A stretch of 52,856 nucleotides of DNA from a bacterium (GTDB taxonomy: Bacteria > Patescibacteriota > Saccharimonadia > Saccharimonadales > Saccharimonadaceae): NCBI GenBank assembly GCA_021781475.1, contig JAJXWT010000004.1, positions 1-52,856 of the forward strand, written 5' to 3'. Shown one piece after another: positions 3,604-47,094 of this stretch (the stretch's first letter is position 1; every line of letters starts with the position of its first letter). The notes beneath the pieces were generated by a model. That model saw nothing but the letters and a program-made list of their open reading frames with translations. It was not told the origin of the DNA and ran no database searches. A program made the translations under genes and the position numbers.

Positions 3604-6375
3604 CTATAAATCTTTTGGATCGATAGGGGGCAGTGATGGATTAAGCTTTGTAATTTTAAGGAGCTCGAGCTTGGCGTTATCTTTCACGCTTGACTTAATT
3701 TGGGGATCTGTAAGGGCATCGTATGCTTTTTTAGCAAGTTGGCCGATCCGATTGCGCTCGTCGGCGGTAATGCCTGGATCGCGTAGTTTATCTTGAGCGC
3801 CCTTCAAGAACGAAGTAAGGGCTGGCGCGTCAGCTGTTGCCAGCTGCTGAGCCGAGAACTTACCTTCGGTTATTTGTGCCTGCAGGTAGTTTTCTAGGTC
3901 GGCTGCACTCGCAATATTGCCCTGGGCAATTTCGTTAATCAGCCGCCCGCCAAGGTAGATGCTTTTTGCACCCATGCTAGACTTAGCGAGCGCGGCCGAA
4001 ATGGTGGTGCGGTATTCAGAAAGCTCGCTCCCCGAAAGCTTAATAATGTCCTCTACCATTGGCACGGTGCCGATTGTCATGTTGTTGTCGATTGCAGCCT
4101 CCATTGCGTAGCTGTCCGTGCGATCAAAGTTAAAGGTGCTGACTACCTTGCCGCTCTTGTCTCTGCGGACACCAACAGCGTGAGTTACTGCGTTACCCTT
4201 GCTATCCTTTCCAAGGATCATGTTCTGTATATCACCAGAGTCTGGCGCATAGTGCTTAATGAGTTCGTTCATTTCACTGACAGATTCGGCGTACTGTTTA
4301 CGTTGCAATGCGACCGCATATGCGAGTGCCGCGTGCTCACCCTGCTCGCCTTGTATTCCCCCTGCGTATTTACGCACATCAACACCGTGGACAGTTCGGC
4401 TCTGTTTTTCAAGGATTGTCGCGACATTATCTTGCTGAACACGCTCTGCCATTTTTTTAGCAATGCCGTCAAACGCAATGTTTTCGGTGTTGAGCTTAAT
4501 AGAGCTCGCATTTGCTAACATTGCGGCGCGCGCCTTCGCATTAAGCTGCTGGGAAAGCTGTTGCATTGTGGCGTGTTGTGCGCCTTGCGCGGCAATTTCG
4601 GCGTGCATAGTTTCAAGGCTTTCGGCTTCAAATTTTGCGGCGACCTCGGTTTCACGGCGCCGCACTTCACGTGCAGTCGTGCGGGCGTCGGTCCTACGCA
4701 TGCGGTCGTAGCCGCCCTTTAATATGTTGTCCTCGGTTTGTTTTTCAGCGGACATATCTTGGGCGTAGTTGTAGGCCTTACGGTAGGCCCTTAGGCGGCG
4801 CTGGCTGAATGGCCCTGTGCCACCGTTTCGGGCACGGGTCTCTGAGGCATCTTCGAAGCCGGCGAGCGCGACCTTTTGGCGGCGTTCGGCGTCGTCAAAG
4901 CGCTGCGCGGTCCAGCGTGCTGCGTTAAAACGTCGGTTGTTGGGGTTAGCAAGTGATTTTTTACGGTGGTAGTCGGACTGGTTTTTGGTCCAGTTGCGGG
5001 CGCGGTCGGTGAGGCCTTTGTTTTTGTTGCTCGCAAAGCTGGCAACGGTGCCGAGCGCTCCACTACTAAACTTAACCAGTAGTGGCGTAATGGCGAGTGG
5101 CATAAGCTGGGTGCCCTTGCCGAGTAAGATTAAAAAGATATTATTGTTGGCGCCCACAATAATGGCAGCCCCGGCAAGTACTGCCCCACCAAACACGAGT
5201 GAAAATAGCGGGAACATAATAAGCATGGCCAGAAAGGTGTCTTTCCATTTGTCGAACCATTTTTCGGTTTTGGGTAAGACAAGCGCGACGAACGCGAGCG
5301 GCGACACAATCACAAATATCACCAAAAGTGCCTGGCGGGCCATTAGTATAAACAATGCTGTCACTGCGGCGAGGGCAACGGATATGAGCATGCCAAGTAG
5401 GGTAAAGAGTGCCGCCGCCAGGCTGCCAGCGGTCGCGAGTGAGACCATGCCGGCGCCCACAACTATGCCACCAGCCGCGGTGCCGCCTAAAATACCCTGC
5501 GCCAGGCCGCCCCAGCTAATGTCGACTTTAAACATGTTTAAGGATTGCGCGAACGACATTAAGAACGCGTACACGCTGTGGCCTAAAAAGTTCGACAGAT
5601 CCACGCCAATTGCACAGATCCAGTACGATATATTGACCAATATGGCTGCGATAATAAGGCGGGGAATCATTTTTTTAAGCCCGTAGTTCGAAAGGCCAAA
5701 ACTGGTCACCTGCGAAAAGATAATAACCATAAACACGAGCACAAAACAGATGTTCGCAATGTTCTTGACGGCGTTCCACACATCAAAAACCGGGCTGTTT
5801 TGCAGCATTGGTTGGACATCCAAGAACTGCATTAACACCCCGTAAATACCATCGATCATGCTGGCAAGCTGGCTGGTGACTGGGCAGATAATCCAGCCAA
5901 TCCCCGACACATTACAGGTGTTCCCCGCGTTTGCCGCGCTCGGTGTTGGCGCGGCGCCGCCGGGTGGTGGATTGTTGGAAATCGTCAGTGTTGTCGGGCC
6001 GGCTGTTTGGTTATAGCTATTGGGTGGCGTAAGCGTAAAGGCCGCGTACAGCGCGGTGGTAGCGGTTTGCGCGGCGGCCTTGCTGACAAAGTAAATATCT
6101 TGGACTGAGTTGTTGGTGGGGTCGCTGTATTCGTAGGCGTATACGTCGGCGCTTGTGGTAAGTTTTCGGGGGTCACTTTTGGTGATTGTCACCTGCTTGG
6201 TAAAGGATTTGCCTTGGTATTGGAGCCCGCTTGTAGTGCGGTATGCGGTGTCCGCAAAGGCAGCGGTGCTGTGGCCGACACACGCAAAAATGGCCGCAAA
6301 CAAACCTGTGGCCACAAAGAGTATACTCCGCTGCGATATTCTACCGCGCGGATGCCTGGTTAAGGTATCCCACAT
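3604..6375 (-). CDS. VirB6/TrbL-like type IV secretion membrane protein with long charged tail
   Basis: The 923-residue protein has an N-terminal signal-type segment (about residues 18-42), an extracytoplasmic domain to about 160, a GWIICP motif near 160, and about six or more membrane helices between 195 and 445. A very long hydrophilic region (445-923), rich in Arg, Ala, Glu and Lys, is probably helical and cytoplasmic. The membrane part shares FSQVTSFG and the following SNYG with the protein at 1-2409. VirB6/TrbL family members make the inner-membrane pore of conjugation-type machines; the extended tail is larger than in the usual VirB6 of about 300 residues. An AGGTGAT Shine-Dalgarno is at the start. 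It is transcribed divergently from the pilin-like cluster that begins at 6485, across a gap of about 110 bases. Confidence 0.8.
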   Translation of the reverse strand: MWDTLTRHPRGRISQRSILFVATGLFAAIFACVGHSTAAFADTAYRTTSGLQYQGKSFTKQVTITKSDPRKLTTSADVYAYEYSDPTNNSVQDIYFVSKAAAQTATTALYAAFTLTPPNSYNQTAGPTTLTISNNPPPGGAAPTPSAANAGNTCNVSGIGWIICPVTSQLASMIDGIYGVLMQFLDVQPMLQNSPVFDVWNAVKNIANICFVLVFMVIIFSQVTSFGLSNYGLKKMIPRLIIAAILVNISYWICAIGVDLSNFLGHSVYAFLMSFAQSLNMFKVDISWGGLAQGILGGTAAGGIVVGAGMVSLATAGSLAAALFTLLGMLISVALAAVTALFILMARQALLVIFVIVSPLAFVALVLPKTEKWFDKWKDTFLAMLIMFPLFSLVFGGAVLAGAAIIVGANNNIFLILLGKGTQLMPLAITPLLVKFSSGALGTVASFASNKNKGLTDRARNWTKNQSDYHRKKSLANPNNRRFNAARWTAQRFDDAERRQKVALAGFEDASETRARNGGTGPFSQRRLRAYRKAYNYAQDMSAEKQTEDNILKGGYDRMRRTDARTTAREVRRRETEVAAKFEAESLETMHAEIAAQGAQHATMQQLSQQLNAKARAAMLANASSIKLNTENIAFDGIAKKMAERVQQDNVATILEKQSRTVHGVDVRKYAGGIQGEQGEHAALAYAVALQRKQYAESVSEMNELIKHYAPDSGDIQNMILGKDSKGNAVTHAVGVRRDKSGKVVSTFNFDRTDSYAMEAAIDNNMTIGTVPMVEDIIKLSGSELSEYRTTISAALAKSSMGAKSIYLGGRLINEIAQGNIASAADLENYLQAQITEGKFSAQQLATADAPALTSFLKGAQDKLRDPGITADERNRIGQLAKKAYDALTDPQIKSSVKDNAKLELLKITKLNPSLPPIDPKDL

Positions 6376-39875: not shown

Positions 39876-42275
39876 ATGGGCATTCAAGTAGTCAAACGCG
39901 ACGGGACACGACAGGACTTTGACGCAAACCAGATTAATTTAGCGCTAGTGGAGGCAAGCGAAGGCTTGCCAGACCAAATCGCCAGAGTGGTGCAGGTGGC
40001 AAGTGAGCTGCAGCTGACATTATTCGATGGTATCACGACCGAGCAATTAGACGAGGCGTTAATCCAGACCACACTACAAAATGTAAAAGATGACCCGGAT
40101 TTTGATACCATAGCTGCCCGGCTGCTACTAAAAAATATCTATAAAACAAGCCTAGGCGAGTATAAAAGTGCTGCAGAGCTAAAAAAACTCCACGCCACGC
40201 AGTTTCCAAAATACATTAAGCAGGCGGTCAAAGACGGCTTGCTTGACGCGCGCATGGCTGACGCCAAACTTTTTGATGTAGTAAAGCTTGGCAAAGCGTT
40301 GGACCCAGAGCGCGACAAACTGAGTAAGTACCTGGGTGTGATTACCAACCGCAACCGCTACGCTTTGCGAAAGCTCAACGGCGACCCGCTGGAAACGCCC
40401 CAATTTACCCACATGCGCATTGCGATGGGTCTGAGTTTTAACGAACCTGACCCAACAGCTGCGGCCCTGGATTTTTACGAGCATATGAGCAAGCTCGAAT
40501 ACCTGCCGGGCGGCAGTACCCGTGTGAACGCCGGCGGTTCATTCCCACAGCTGAGCAACTGTTTTGTGATTGATGTCGAAGACGACATGGAAAGCATTGC
40601 CAAAAGCATTCGCGATACCATGTGGATTGCCAAAGGCACGGGCGGCATTGGCATTAGCATGAACAAACTGAGGGCAGCGGGGAGCCCGGTCAAAACTACC
40701 AACACGGTCAGCACGGGTCCGCTGCCGTTTATGAAAATGATCGACACGGCGCTATTTGCGGTCAGCCGCAAGGGCAAAAAGGCCGGTGCCGCGGCGATTT
40801 ACATGGAAAACTGGCACCTGAATTTTCCGCAGTTTATGGACTTGCGTGAAAACAATGGTGACCCGTACTACCGCACGCGGTTTGCGAACATTGCCGTGTA
40901 TATTAGCGATGAGTTTATGAAACGCGTACAAAACGATCAGGATTGGTACCTATTTGACCCGGCCGCGACGCCTGATTTAAGTGAATTATATGGCGAAGCC
41001 TTTAGCAAACGTTATAACCAGTATATTGAGCAGGCTGAGGCAGGGAATATGCGTGTATTTGAAAAAATACCGGCCCGCCAACAGTGGCGCCAGATTTTGA
41101 TCCGCCTGCAGGCGAGCAGTCACCCGTGGATTACCTGGAAAGATACCATTAACACACGCGCGCTTAATAACAACACTGCCACAATCCATAGCAGCAACTT
41201 ATGCACCGAAATCACCTTACCAAACGACGCAAAAAATATTAGCGTGTGCAACCTGGTGAGTATTAACTTGCCAGCATTTTTAAACGCTACCGACAAAACG
41301 TGGGATTGGGAACGGTTAGAACGAGCGACGCGTAGTGCCATTCGGCAGCTCGACAACCTATGTGATATTACTGATACGCCAGTCACCGAGGCCCTTAATA
41401 GCATTCAAAGTACGCGCGCCCTGGGCCTAGGGATTATGGGCTTTACCGACGTGATTGAAAAGCTTGGTTTTAGCTACGAAAGCGAACCGGCCTATGACAC
41501 CATGGACCAACTGGCTGAGTTTATTAGCTACCACGCGATTGATGAAAGTGCCGAACTGGCCAAAACCCGCGGCATTTACCCAGACTTTACCGGGAGCGGT
41601 TGGCAAAAAGGCGAGCTGCCAATTGATACGGTTGATTTATTAGAAATTGACCGTAAAGTTGCCGTGGATGTAACGCGCAAAAAGCGCCTTGACTGGGAAA
41701 AGCTACGTAAAAAAACTGTAAAAGGTATGCGCAACGCCACACTCATGGCGATTGCGCCAACGGCGAACATTGGCCACGTGGCCGGCACCACGCCGGGTAT
41801 TGACCCGCAATTTAGCCAGATTTTTAGCCGCAGTACCTTAAATGGCAAGTTCTTGGAAGTCAACACGAACTTGGTCGCTGACCTAAAAAAACTCGGCCTG
41901 TGGGAGCAGGTGAAAGATCAACTGCTGGTAGAGCAGGGTGACCTGACCAACATTGAGGGCATTCCGCAGAGCATAAAAGATGTATACAAAACCTGTTTCC
42001 AATTAAGCCCGTACGCCTTTATTGAAGTGGCGGCGCGCGCCCAAAAATGGGTTGATCAATCTATCAGCCGCAACATGTACCTAGAAAGTCGTAGCATTGA
42101 CGATATGGAAAAGGTCTACATGGAGGCCTGGAAGCGTGGCCTAAAAACCACGTACTACCTGCACATGAAGCCGCGCCACCAGGCCGAACAAAGCACGACA
42201 ACTGTAAATAAAGCCGAACAAATCGCCAAAAGTACCGGAACAATGCGCAAGGGCTTTGGCTTTGCAAAAGGATAA
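39876..42275 (+). CDS. nrdA: ribonucleoside-diphosphate reductase large subunit without C-terminal Cys pair
   Basis: The 799-residue class I R1 reduces ribonucleotides to deoxyribonucleotides. An ATP-cone is at residues 1-95. The catalytic Cys set is complete: Cys229 and Cys458 (the redox pair) and Cys443 with Asn441 and Glu445 in NLCTE (radical site). Tyr760-Tyr761 fit the radical-transfer pair. After them only about 40 residues follow, ending FGFAKG, without any Cys. Most NrdA proteins end with a mobile CxxC or CxxxxC tail that re-reduces the active-site disulfide. Here that function must come from elsewhere, and a 57-residue protein ending CDGCE is encoded 24 bases downstream. AAGGAG precedes the ATG. 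Confidence 0.96.
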   Translation: MGIQVVKRDGTRQDFDANQINLALVEASEGLPDQIARVVQVASELQLTLFDGITTEQLDEALIQTTLQNVKDDPDFDTIAARLLLKNIYKTSLGEYKSAAELKKLHATQFPKYIKQAVKDGLLDARMADAKLFDVVKLGKALDPERDKLSKYLGVITNRNRYALRKLNGDPLETPQFTHMRIAMGLSFNEPDPTAAALDFYEHMSKLEYLPGGSTRVNAGGSFPQLSNCFVIDVEDDMESIAKSIRDTMWIAKGTGGIGISMNKLRAAGSPVKTTNTVSTGPLPFMKMIDTALFAVSRKGKKAGAAAIYMENWHLNFPQFMDLRENNGDPYYRTRFANIAVYISDEFMKRVQNDQDWYLFDPAATPDLSELYGEAFSKRYNQYIEQAEAGNMRVFEKIPARQQWRQILIRLQASSHPWITWKDTINTRALNNNTATIHSSNLCTEITLPNDAKNISVCNLVSINLPAFLNATDKTWDWERLERATRSAIRQLDNLCDITDTPVTEALNSIQSTRALGLGIMGFTDVIEKLGFSYESEPAYDTMDQLAEFISYHAIDESAELAKTRGIYPDFTGSGWQKGELPIDTVDLLEIDRKVAVDVTRKKRLDWEKLRKKTVKGMRNATLMAIAPTANIGHVAGTTPGIDPQFSQIFSRSTLNGKFLEVNTNLVADLKKLGLWEQVKDQLLVEQGDLTNIEGIPQSIKDVYKTCFQLSPYAFIEVAARAQKWVDQSISRNMYLESRSIDDMEKVYMEAWKRGLKTTYYLHMKPRHQAEQSTTTVNKAEQIAKSTGTMRKGFGFAKG

Positions 42276-42299: not shown

Positions 42300-42473
42300 A
42301 TGAACGCAAATGCAATTATAAACGACGATATGAGCCTAGAGGAAAAGCTACAAGCCATTAGCGACGCGATGGAACAGGCGCAGGCTGAAGCGAATGAAAA
42401 GGCCGCGCAAAACGGCCAAATAGCCGCACCAATCGATCCGGCGAGTCTGACAATTTGCGACGGCTGTGAATAA
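42300..42473 (+). CDS. 57-residue protein ending in CDGCE, candidate detached redox tail of NrdA
   Basis: Located between nrdA and nrdB, with an AAAAGGGGG Shine-Dalgarno and in a different frame from nrdA. The product has a short N-terminus, a helix MSLEEKLQAISDAM (residues 11-24), an Ala/Glu/Gln-rich linker, and the C-terminus LTICDGCE. A CxxC pair within the last five residues is what normally ends NrdA and is absent from the NrdA here. I infer that this protein shuttles electrons from thioredoxin or glutaredoxin to the NrdA active site. A paralogue is at 45060-45182. A zinc-binding role or an unrelated small protein are alternatives. Confidence 0.8.
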   Translation: MNANAIINDDMSLEEKLQAISDAMEQAQAEANEKAAQNGQIAAPIDPASLTICDGCE

Positions 42474-42539: not shown

Positions 42540-43535
42540 ATGGGAATATTAGGAACAGCGATTCAGGACGGCCTTTTACTAAAACCAATCCACTACCAAT
42601 GGGCAATGGATCTATACGATCAAGCGGTAGCGAACACGTGGTTTCCGAATGAAATTCAGTTGGCGCAGGACCTCGCTGACTGGGAAAAAATGACCGACGA
42701 AGAACGCTATGCGGTAACGTTTTTAATGAGCTACTTTAACCCCAACGAACTTTTGGTAAACAAGGCGCTGGCGTTTGGCGTGTACCCATATTTAAATACC
42801 GCCGAAACGCAGGTATATGTCAGCAAACAAATGTGGGAAGAGGCCAACCACTGCATGGCGTTTGAGTATGTACTGGATACGTTCCCGATTGACCGCGAAA
42901 AGGCTTATGGCGCCCATGTGGACGAGCCGACTATGGCGGCCAAAGAGGAGTTTGAGTACAAATATATTAAGCGCATGACAGGCGAGCAGCTTGATATTAG
43001 TACGACAGAGGGCAAAAAAGATTTCGTGCGTAACTTGATTGCCTACAACATTATTTTGGAAGGTATTTGGTTTTACAGTGGCTTTATGGTGGCGCTTAGC
43101 TTTCGGCAACGTAATTTGCTAAGGAACTTTGGTAGCTTGATTGACTGGATTGTGCGCGACGAAAGCCTGCACCTTAAGTTTGGTATGAACTTAATTTTAA
43201 CGGTGCTCGATGAAAACGAAGATTTACAAACGCCGGAATTCGCGGCCGAAATCAAACAGATGATTTTGGATGGCGTAAAAATGGAAGAGGATTACAACAA
43301 GGCATTGTTGCCGCAGGGCATTTTAGGCCTGAACGCTGATTACGTAAACCAGTACGTCAAATACCTCACTGACCGCCGGCTCGAAGAGCTTGGTTTTGAG
43401 CCGGAATATAAGGTGGGTAACCCTGCCAAATGGATGGCCACCGCCAACGACACCTACGAGTTGGTGAACTTTTTTGAAAGCACCAACACGAGTTACGAAG
43501 TAAATGCTGGCAAAAATGGCCCTACAGCTGAATAA
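42540..43535 (+). CDS. nrdB: ribonucleotide reductase small subunit, class Ic-type residues
   Basis: The 331-residue R2 has metal ligands Glu70, Glu101, His104, Glu174, Glu208 and His211. The spacing (31, 73, 34) equals that of Chlamydia trachomatis R2 (Glu89, 120, 193, 227). The radical Tyr position is Phe108, followed by Tyr110, as Phe127 and Tyr129 in that enzyme, and the first ligand is Glu and not Asp. Class Ic R2 uses a Mn/Fe centre instead of a tyrosyl radical, so the same is expected here. AAGGAG lies 8 bases before the ATG at 42540. It is the third gene of the nrd operon and its end overlaps the converging pilin gene by 14 bases. Confidence 0.95.
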   Translation: MGILGTAIQDGLLLKPIHYQWAMDLYDQAVANTWFPNEIQLAQDLADWEKMTDEERYAVTFLMSYFNPNELLVNKALAFGVYPYLNTAETQVYVSKQMWEEANHCMAFEYVLDTFPIDREKAYGAHVDEPTMAAKEEFEYKYIKRMTGEQLDISTTEGKKDFVRNLIAYNIILEGIWFYSGFMVALSFRQRNLLRNFGSLIDWIVRDESLHLKFGMNLILTVLDENEDLQTPEFAAEIKQMILDGVKMEEDYNKALLPQGILGLNADYVNQYVKYLTDRRLEELGFEPEYKVGNPAKWMATANDTYELVNFFESTNTSYEVNAGKNGPTAE

Positions 43536-44112
43536 TGCGCGCTGATTTCATGTTGTAGGTTGTGGCCGTTGTCCCAACCCCACACTGGGTAATGGCGTTG
43601 TTCAAATTAGCCGTGTCTGTTGCCGACGGTTGCCGTAGCGACCATAGCAGCACATAAAGGCCCGTGGTACTGCCACATTTGTATATCATGGCCGAGTATT
43701 TGCCGGTAGAGTAGCCGGTGCTTGGGTAGGTGGGGTTATTGGGGAGCGAGCTAATATAGTTTTTTGGCAGGTAGCCGGCGGCAGTCAGCATGTCTTCGAG
43801 TGTGCAGCTGTATGTTCCGGTCGCCGCCCAGCCTTGGCCGCCACCATCGGCGCACACACCGCTTGCCCCAAGGGCGGTGGTTGAGCCACTGCCGCCGGTA
43901 ATCGAATTGCCGTGGTCAAGCGACCACAGCACTAGCGCTTTTGCCACTTTTTCCATGCCATCACTGGTTTTTGCATCAAGCGCGCGGTTTTGTACCCCTG
44001 TATAGGCCACAATAGTGATCGCGGCTAACACCGCAATAATCACAACCACAATTAAAAGCTCGACTAGCGTAAACCCCGACTGTTTTTTAGCTGCTGCCCA
44101 CGTAGCGTTCAT
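43522..44112 (-). CDS. type IV prepilin (PilA/PilE-like)
   Basis: The 196-residue protein has a class III signal: a short basic leader, then SG|FTLVELLIVVVIIAVLAAI, with the prepilin peptidase site after Gly13 and Glu at +5. After the helix comes a globular head with two pairs of Cys (CADGG/SCTL; KCGS/QCGV) and a Ser/Thr/Gly-rich middle. It would form or modify a type IV pilus on the cell surface, possibly used for attachment or DNA uptake with ComFC. No pilus assembly gene is near, so it stands alone. It is a different family from the VirB2-like proteins at 6.5-12.2 kb. Confidence 0.92.
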   Translation of the reverse strand: MNATWAAAKKQSGFTLVELLIVVVIIAVLAAITIVAYTGVQNRALDAKTSDGMEKVAKALVLWSLDHGNSITGGSGSTTALGASGVCADGGGQGWAATGTYSCTLEDMLTAAGYLPKNYISSLPNNPTYPSTGYSTGKYSAMIYKCGSTTGLYVLLWSLRQPSATDTANLNNAITQCGVGTTATTYNMKSARIIQL

Positions 44113-45059: not shown

Positions 45060-45182
45060 ATGGAGCAAACACTTACGGGCGGCGATATGACGCTCGAGCA
45101 AAAACTACAAGCCATTACAGAGGCGCTGCGGCGGCTAGATGGCGACAATACTAACGATTTAATATGTGAGGGGTGTGAGTAA
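45060..45182 (+). CDS. 40-residue protein ending in CEGCE, paralogue of the NrdA-tail-like protein
   Basis: The product has the same plan as the 57-residue protein in the nrd operon: a helix MTLEQKLQAITEAL (residues 10-23) against MSLEEKLQAISDAM, a short polar linker, and a C-terminal LICEGCE against LTICDGCE. The linker is shorter. AAGGAGGGG lies 3 bases before the ATG, which is close but usable; the ATG at 45087, the M of the helix, is another possible start. The next gene begins one base after the stop. The paired occurrence makes chance unlikely. It may serve NrdA under other conditions or another partner. Confidence 0.75.
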   Translation: MEQTLTGGDMTLEQKLQAITEALRRLDGDNTNDLICEGCE

Positions 45183-45183
45183 G

Positions 45184-45414
45184 ATGAACAATGAAAAAGG
45201 TGGATATATCCGACCAATTAATATGCCCGATGGTTACGAGCTTCAAGGCTATGATGCTAGGGGAAACGAAATCTGGGGTCCAACCCAAGAGTATAACCGA
45301 GCGCTTTTAGCACGGGGCACGCGCTCTGAACGTGAGAGGGGGAAACGCACCACTCCTAATGACATTGCGACCCGTGCGCAGTTGCTCGGTGATCTAGAGG
45401 GTGTCGTTGCCTAG
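45184..45414 (+). CDS. hypothetical 76-residue basic protein
   Basis: The gene starts one base after the stop of the CEGCE protein (TAAGATG), so the two are co-translated. The product is Arg/Gly/Asn-rich and soluble, with PDGYELQGYDARGNEIWGPT, which looks like a small beta repeat, and a basic RGTRSERERGKR stretch. No family is recognised. The coupling suggests a functional link to the redox peptide, which is inference. Confidence 0.6.
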   Translation: MNNEKGGYIRPINMPDGYELQGYDARGNEIWGPTQEYNRALLARGTRSERERGKRTTPNDIATRAQLLGDLEGVVA

Positions 45415-45486: not shown

Positions 45487-47094
45487 ATGGGGGATATTGT
45501 GAACATGGGTAAAAACACAAAATTTATATTTGTTACCGGCGGCGTATTAAGTGGCGTCGGTAAAGGAATCACCGCCGCCAGCATTGGGGCGGTGCTTCAG
45601 TCTAAGGGGTTAAATGTTAGTATTCAAAAGTGCGACCCGTATTTAAACGTGGACGCTGGGCTATTAAACCCAAAAGAGCACGGCGAATGCTTTGTCACCA
45701 AGGATGGTGCCGAAACCGACCTGGATCTTGGCCACTACGAGCGTTTTTTGGATTTAGAGCTTACACAAAGAAGCGCTACCTTGCAGGGGCGATTAATGAA
45801 GCAATTAATTGACGATGAACGCGCTGGTAAATTTGGCGGGCAAACGATACAACTGGTGCCGCACCTCACTGGCGCGATTATGGATTCGATTGCCGATGCC
45901 GGTAATGGCAGCGATGTGCATATTGTGGAAGTCGGCGGCACGGTTGGCGACTACGAAAGCCTGGCGTTTATTGAAGCGATCCGCGAATTTGGCAGCCGCA
46001 TTGGCCGCGAACGGTGCATGTATGTGCACGTGGTGTATGTGCCGTACCTTGGTACGAGCCACGAATTTAAAAGCAAACCCGCCCAAAATGCCCTAAACGA
46101 CCTGCGTGGCTACGGCATTATGCCCGATGTGGTAGGGGTGCGCACCGATAGCACCCACCCGGCGCCCGATGCTATTGCCGATAAAATCAGCAAGTTTGGC
46201 GGTATCGCGCGTGATGGCGTGATGATGATGCCGAACTGCCATACAGTGTACGAAGTGCCCTTAACGGTCGCGCGCGACTTGAATAAAAAACTGAGTGAAT
46301 TTACGGGCGTAACCAAAAAACCAGCGCTCGCTGCCTGGCGCAAGCTGGTGGACGAAGACACGCAAGGGTTTGAGCGCCATATTAAGATTGGCTTGGTCGC
46401 AAAATACCTCGACAACACGGATACCTACTTAAGTGTAATAGAAGCCCTAAAAAGTGCCGGCTGGGCCGAAAAGGTGGATGCCGATATCCGCTGGATCGAT
46501 GCCGAGAATGTCACTAACGAACAGTTAGACGAAGTCGATTGTATTTTGGTGCCCGGCGGCTTTGGCAGCCGTGGTATCGAAGGCAAAATTACCGCCGCGC
46601 GTTATGCGCTCGACCATAGCAAGCCCTACCTCGGCCTGTGCCTGGGCTTGCAGGTGGCGGTAATTGCTGCCGCGCGCAAGGGCGGCCTACAACACGCAAA
46701 TAGCACAGAATTCGTCGATACCAAAGAAAACGTAGTATACATTATGCCAGGCCAAGAAGGTAAGCAAAGTACCGGTGGCACGCTGCGGCTCGGTGATTAC
46801 CCCGCCAAATTGGTAACGGGCAGCAGGGTTGCTAATGTATATAATACAACAAACATTACGGAGCGCCACCGCCACCGCTATGAGGTTAACCAGGCCTTCT
46901 TGAAAGATATCGAAAAAGGTGGCATTGTTGTAAGCGGCACATCACCAGATGGTAAATTGGTCGAATTCATTGAAGCGCCAACATGTGATTACTTTGTGGC
47001 AACCCAGGCGCACCCAGAATTCAAAAGCCGCCCTATGCGTGCACACCCGCTATTCCGCGGGCTTATTAAGGCAGCTAAGAAAACAGTCGTTTAA
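45487..47094 (+). CDS. pyrG: CTP synthase
   Basis: The 535-residue enzyme makes CTP from UTP, ATP and glutamine. The synthetase domain opens with FVTGGVLSGVGKGITAAS (P-loop) and has SIQKCDPYLNVD and HVVYVPYLG. The C-terminal glutamine amidotransferase has GLCLGLQ with the nucleophile Cys, and HPEFKSRP with His and Glu. The start at 45487 adds a few residues before KFIFVTGG; TATACT 8 bases upstream supports it, and the ATG at 45505 is an alternative. Supply of CTP feeds the ribonucleotide reductase encoded nearby. Confidence 0.97.
   Translation: MGDIVNMGKNTKFIFVTGGVLSGVGKGITAASIGAVLQSKGLNVSIQKCDPYLNVDAGLLNPKEHGECFVTKDGAETDLDLGHYERFLDLELTQRSATLQGRLMKQLIDDERAGKFGGQTIQLVPHLTGAIMDSIADAGNGSDVHIVEVGGTVGDYESLAFIEAIREFGSRIGRERCMYVHVVYVPYLGTSHEFKSKPAQNALNDLRGYGIMPDVVGVRTDSTHPAPDAIADKISKFGGIARDGVMMMPNCHTVYEVPLTVARDLNKKLSEFTGVTKKPALAAWRKLVDEDTQGFERHIKIGLVAKYLDNTDTYLSVIEALKSAGWAEKVDADIRWIDAENVTNEQLDEVDCILVPGGFGSRGIEGKITAARYALDHSKPYLGLCLGLQVAVIAAARKGGLQHANSTEFVDTKENVVYIMPGQEGKQSTGGTLRLGDYPAKLVTGSRVANVYNTTNITERHRHRYEVNQAFLKDIEKGGIVVSGTSPDGKLVEFIEAPTCDYFVATQAHPEFKSRPMRAHPLFRGLIKAAKKTVV

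Follow-up and report, generated by a model that had tools for sequence, protein, structure and literature searches.

The window, that is, the whole stretch of 52,856 nucleotides analyzed here, contains the genes for the two subunits of a class I RNR, nrdA and nrdB, with a small open reading frame, ORF1, between them (Table 1). A second small frame, ORF2, lies further 3', followed by a frame for a 76-residue protein and by pyrG. The preliminary description of this region had ORF2 coupled to the 76-residue frame and located upstream of pyrG, and the coordinates agree with both statements. A type IV pilin-like protein, GFTLVELLIVVVIIAVLAAI, is encoded on the opposite strand (43522-44112) between nrdB and ORF2.

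Table 1. Coordinates of the nrd genes, the two small CxxC frames and their neighbors in the window.
Feature	Position	Strand	Description
nrdA	39876..42275	+	Alpha subunit (799 aa) of class I RNR; domain matches and conserved catalytic residues
ORF1	42300..42473	+	57 aa, between nrdA and nrdB; conserved in 41/41 genomes with a tailless NrdA
nrdB	42540..43535	+	Beta subunit of class I RNR; radical-Tyr position occupied by Phe
ORF2	45060..45182	+	40 aa, paralogue of the free NrdA tail; translation, homology to ORF1, coding statistics
76-aa ORF	45184..45414	+	Starts one base past the ORF2 stop (TAA)
pyrG	45487..47094	+	CTP synthase; neighbor 3' of the nrd genes, conserved in many relatives

Textbook class I RNRs carry their own swinging tail on the NrdA chain. 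The NrdA of the window has the domains of a class I alpha subunit (PF02867, with 541 bits, PF00317 and an ATP-cone) and all of the catalytic residues C229, C443, C458, Y760 and Y761, and these cysteines and tyrosines are kept in 47-48 of the 48 proteins aligned. Its chain ends in ...GFGFAKG, with neither a CxxC nor a CxxxxC at the C-terminus, and the NF005101 model covers it to position 788 of 822 only. The same tailless architecture was found in all 41 Saccharibacteria genomes examined, the window genome included, and a frameshift or an assembly break in nrdA could thus be ruled out as the cause of the missing tail. Judging from its sequence, the accompanying NrdB looks like a class Ic protein: its best PDB matches are 1syy/4d8f, the class Ic protein of Chlamydia being the closest solved relative, and its Phe aligns with the Phe of that protein. 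The window genome also encodes a thioredoxin and a glutaredoxin.

In the nrdAB region of each of the 41 genomes with a tailless NrdA there is a separate small protein of 51-79 residues ending in C-x-[GS]-C-[QE], referred to here as the free tail, whose gene is located between nrdA and nrdB or, in 12 of the 41, 3' of nrdB. In the window this protein is the product of ORF1 (MNANAIINDDMSLEEKLQAISDAMEQ...LTICDGCE). The alignment of the small proteins, A1, has the consensus MNAxxIIxDxMTLEEKLxAIDxAM...APxDPADLTMCxGCQ, in which I20, D46, P47, C53 and C56 are invariant, and the free tail is under purifying selection, with pN lower than pS in 136/136 pairs (mean 0.22 vs 0.74). For ORF1, AlphaFold2 predicts a helix at residues 13-37 and then a flexible end that holds the CDGCE. 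No match to ORF1 or ORF2 was found in Pfam or NCBIfam. The free tails, which span 40-79 residues, do not have the thioredoxin fold and N-terminal CxxC of thioredoxins and glutaredoxins, their CxxC being C-terminal.

The relationship of this family to NrdA is indicated by the closest NrdAs outside the tailless group (G440, G449, G402, G329 and G137, with 58-59% identity over the C-terminal part), which have a fused end, ...TTYYLHMKPRHTAEQSTxxVNK...GF...CP[VI]DPQERLxC[DE]SCQ. The end of the small protein, APIDPADLTMCEGCQ, has its counterpart in the last 15 residues of these fused NrdAs, and the A1 profile picked up the fused ends in G440 and G137 unaided. Since the fused ends match its C-terminus, the small protein can be regarded as a detached NrdA tail to which a new N-terminal helix has been added and, because NrdA itself has lost this tail, the family as the C-terminal CxxC tail of NrdA encoded by a gene of its own. 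The helix has no counterpart in the fused tails, so that any role assigned to it is a guess. The preliminary description had taken the two ORFs for a real family, and homology and codon usage agree that the family is real and looks translated; it had left the family nameless, which no longer holds with its identification as the NrdA tail.

A link between the family and NrdA had also been suggested, with co-occurrence of the genes as a check, and this was borne out. Among 302 family genomes, the free tail was present in 89 and this NrdA in 91, with both in 88 and neither in 210 (Fisher p = 1.5e-71, a value that is formal only, because the genomes are related). The four exceptions can be traced to contig edges, to a degenerate fragment or to a tail that has diverged. 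In G077, the only genome with a tail alone, a fragment of NrdA is located at the edge of a contig; the assembled sequence of two genomes scored as having NrdA only (G673 and G518) does not include the end of NrdA, and in G690, NrdA-only by profile, a divergent free tail that the profile missed lies between nrdA and nrdB. In GTDB genomes a scan recovered 80 free-tail loci, nearly all of them, where a phylum is named, from Saccharibacteria, including the oral taxa HOT-348, 350 and 352.

The main tailless clade forms a single branch (100/99) of the NrdA tree, nested among tailed proteins, and three changes are required to account for taillessness; two further lineages, represented by G237 and G334, lost the tail separately. 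In G237 a free tail (...NLNVCESCQ) is encoded some 0.2 kb 3' of nrdB, and in G334 the NrdA is tailless and a small ORF, ...VCPIDPEELKECEACQ, is unlinked to it, 66 kb off. A D-x-D-W in the free tails of G334 and G237 was considered as a likeness to the C-terminus of beta subunits and was not convincing when set against the NrdB ends of the same genomes. The tail of an essential enzyme has been handed to a diffusible protein, of 57 residues in the window, at least three times within Patescibacteria.

The second copy, ORF2, encodes MEQTLTGGDMTLEQKLQAITEALRRLDGDNTNDLICEGCE, made up of a helix, MTLEQKLQAITEAL, a linker shorter than that of ORF1 and the C-terminal LICEGCE. As previously described, it shares both helix and end with ORF1: the global alignment of the two proteins scores 66.5 against a shuffle maximum of 20.5 (n=2000), and the family HMM gives ORF2 25.7 bits, while full shuffles reach at most 12.9 (n=2000) and shuffles that keep the end at most 19.9. 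The first 70 bases of ORF2 also align with ORF1 at the DNA level, with a score of 71 vs a shuffle maximum of 46. On account of this DNA likeness and of the KLQAI motif, we attribute ORF2 to a duplication of ORF1 within the lineage; it is a recent, lineage-specific and shortened duplicate. No copy of ORF2 was found in 40 relatives, where the weak matches are ORF1 orthologues, and none of the 12 relatives checked has a second tail copy 5' of pyrG, so that ORF2 is known from this one genome. The 76-residue protein matches no known family and has no convincing match in the 40 relatives, nor any match in the viral contigs.

Absence of the pair in close relatives had been proposed as an argument against a real family. 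The outcome is divided: the 57-residue copy is present in every relative with this NrdA, and the 40-residue copy and the 76-residue protein are in none of the 40. The suggestion of two modes or partners is weakened, because the 40-residue copy and its putative partner were found in this genome only, although second copies do exist elsewhere, mostly on phage-like contigs. The location upstream of pyrG cannot be taken as a sign of a second mode, the same spot being the home of the only tail gene in some relatives, as in G003, where it sits 51 bases 5' of pyrG.

ORF2 would most likely serve the same NrdA as an additional tail, a function that we infer, and it is perhaps expressed at another level than ORF1. 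It may also be a diverging or decaying copy. It is a less probable but serious alternative that ORF2 is a decaying duplicate that does not work as a tail, or a competitor acting in trans that keeps ORF1 from its docking site. Consistent with this are its occurrence in a single genome, a weaker coding signal, and the changes in the protein itself, which is 17 residues shorter than ORF1, with the loss mostly in the linker, lacks the P-x-D-P motif and reads NTNDLICEGCE where the A1 family has the invariant D-P ahead of the CxxC. However, the frame is open and is the one of six that codon usage favors (an equal score is reached by 0.7% of windows in a wrong frame), AAGGAGG lies immediately 5' of it, and the protein retains the helix with LEEKLxAI and the terminal CxGC[EQ] of the family, ending in CxGCE.

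In class I RNRs the active site is re-reduced via C-terminal cysteines, themselves reduced by thioredoxin or glutaredoxin, since neither of these can enter the active-site pocket (PMC4390871). As far as the sequences indicate, the NrdA studied here has lost this tail, a homologous tail is carried by a small protein, and the two genes occur together. We consider it highly probable that ORF1 is the detached redox tail of a class I NrdA, encoded by its own gene and acting in trans, and that ORF2 is its duplicate. Turnover would leave the active-site pair C229/C458 of NrdA as a disulfide; the free tail would then dock on NrdA via its helix, its C-terminal C-x-x-C would reach the active site and take over the disulfide, and the tail would in turn be re-reduced by thioredoxin or glutaredoxin. 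Helix docking, electron transfer in trans and the identity of the reductant are the presumed parts of this scheme. A tail acting in trans is plausible, because in yeast Rnr1 the C-terminus serves the active site of the neighboring subunit (PMC3618301); in both cases the tail of one chain would work on another, with the difference that the yeast tail belongs to the Rnr1 chain. In an AlphaFold2 model of an NrdA-linker-tail chimera, read through the stop, the tail region had low confidence (about 26-58) and docking was not seen.

The location of the redox cysteine pair on a separate protein, with none on the catalytic chain, is the arrangement of a split RNR. Such an enzyme is already known in class II: in NrdJa/NrdJb of Pseudomonas aeruginosa a separate subunit does the disulfide exchange (PMC4520616), and there too the catalytic protein is without C-terminal redox cysteines and a separate small protein has them. 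NrdJa/NrdJb is B12-dependent, whereas the system described here is class I, with a partner of 40-79 residues that consists of one helix and a flexible CxxC end. The literature searched, whose coverage was incomplete, contained no split class I RNR, the class II case being the only one found; what is new here is a split RNR in class I, a minimal subunit and phage-borne copies. Compared to the ordinary class I tail, the free tail has the same P-x-D-P ... C-x-x-C-Q at its extreme end, as in the fused relatives, but it is unattached, has an extra N-terminal helix, has its gene between nrdA and nrdB or 3' of both, and has copies in phages that do not carry NrdA. The swinging-arm model becomes directly testable with such a system, because the ratio of arm to enzyme can be chosen at will. 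Moreover, a function can be assigned to a tiny, unnamed protein family of the human oral flora and other Saccharibacteria.

The small CxxC protein could instead bind a metal, for instance as a carrier for NrdB, or regulate RNR, with thioredoxin or glutaredoxin reducing NrdA directly. Its gene is in the nrd operon and adjoins nrdB, a CxxC is capable of binding metal, and a few genomes have tiny Cys-rich ORFs alongside. We nevertheless find this quite improbable, as the protein has a single cysteine pair at its extreme C-terminus in the sequence context of the fused NrdA tail, it occurs where the NrdA tail is absent, it is paired with a glutaredoxin in four phages, and neither reductant fits into the pocket (PMC4390871). 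It is hardly credible that readthrough of a stop codon joins the tail to NrdA in one protein: nrdA and ORF1 of the window are in the same frame, separated by a single TAA and eight codons, and some 20 other loci are likewise in frame, but in other genomes the tail is out of frame or lies beyond one to four stops of all three kinds, its ATG start is conserved, it is 3' of nrdB in 12/41 genomes, and phages have it alone. Gene order, frames and stops refute such a fusion; nrdA and the tail are separate genes, because they are arranged either A-tail-B or A-B-tail, with stops of every kind in between.

A scan of IMG/VR gave 21 viral contigs with a free tail, and no NrdA catalytic domain was found on any of them, an absence that is no proof given that these contigs are fragments. 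Genes for a terminase large subunit and endolysins, and for replication and a DNA polymerase exonuclease, occur on those checked. The four related phages L265-L268 have, less than 200 bases past the tail gene (about 5001-5174), the start of a glutaredoxin gene (about 5360-5590); the one of the four that was tested matched PF00462 with 6.8e-13. In L261 a dATP/dGTP diphosphohydrolase gene adjoins the tail, and L257 and L260 each have two overlapping tails on the contig. No match to ORF1 was found in GenBank phage records. Phages may use the free tail to boost the RNR of the host, which suggests a route to more dNTP by means of a single tiny gene, with no need to carry an entire RNR. We lean slightly towards a broader view, in which the redox tail is a freely exchangeable protein across class-I-bearing Saccharibacteria and a mobile control point, which phages carry either by itself or together with a glutaredoxin so as to drive or capture the enzyme of the host, with extra variants kept in genomes such as this one.

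Some additional observations concern tails and their neighbors in other genomes. The second tails of L257 (5159-5308) and L260 (about 295-480) have a different start and a like end, ...IPIDPMDELQCDSCQ, so that tails also occur in tandem. In two Saccharibacterial genomes (L194, L181; L204, L233) phage-like contigs carry a second free tail, at a distance from nrdAB, and in L233 (1246-2919), a contig from a bacterial bin with phage-like genes, a chaperonin (Cpn60) gene is directly 5' of the second free tail. Tiny Cys-rich ORFs (e.g. MNESNNCTCTCDCCKDCKSCTTK) between nrdA and the tail in L076, L077 and L087 are either metallothionein-like or due to chance. Finally, two unrelated Patescibacteria have a tailless NrdA and a small ORF with a CxxC end, at L148:9447-9557 on the minus strand and, in L162, about 1.2 kb after nrdA; D-x-D-W is present in both of these small ORFs, a faint likeness to the end by which beta subunits dock on NrdA.
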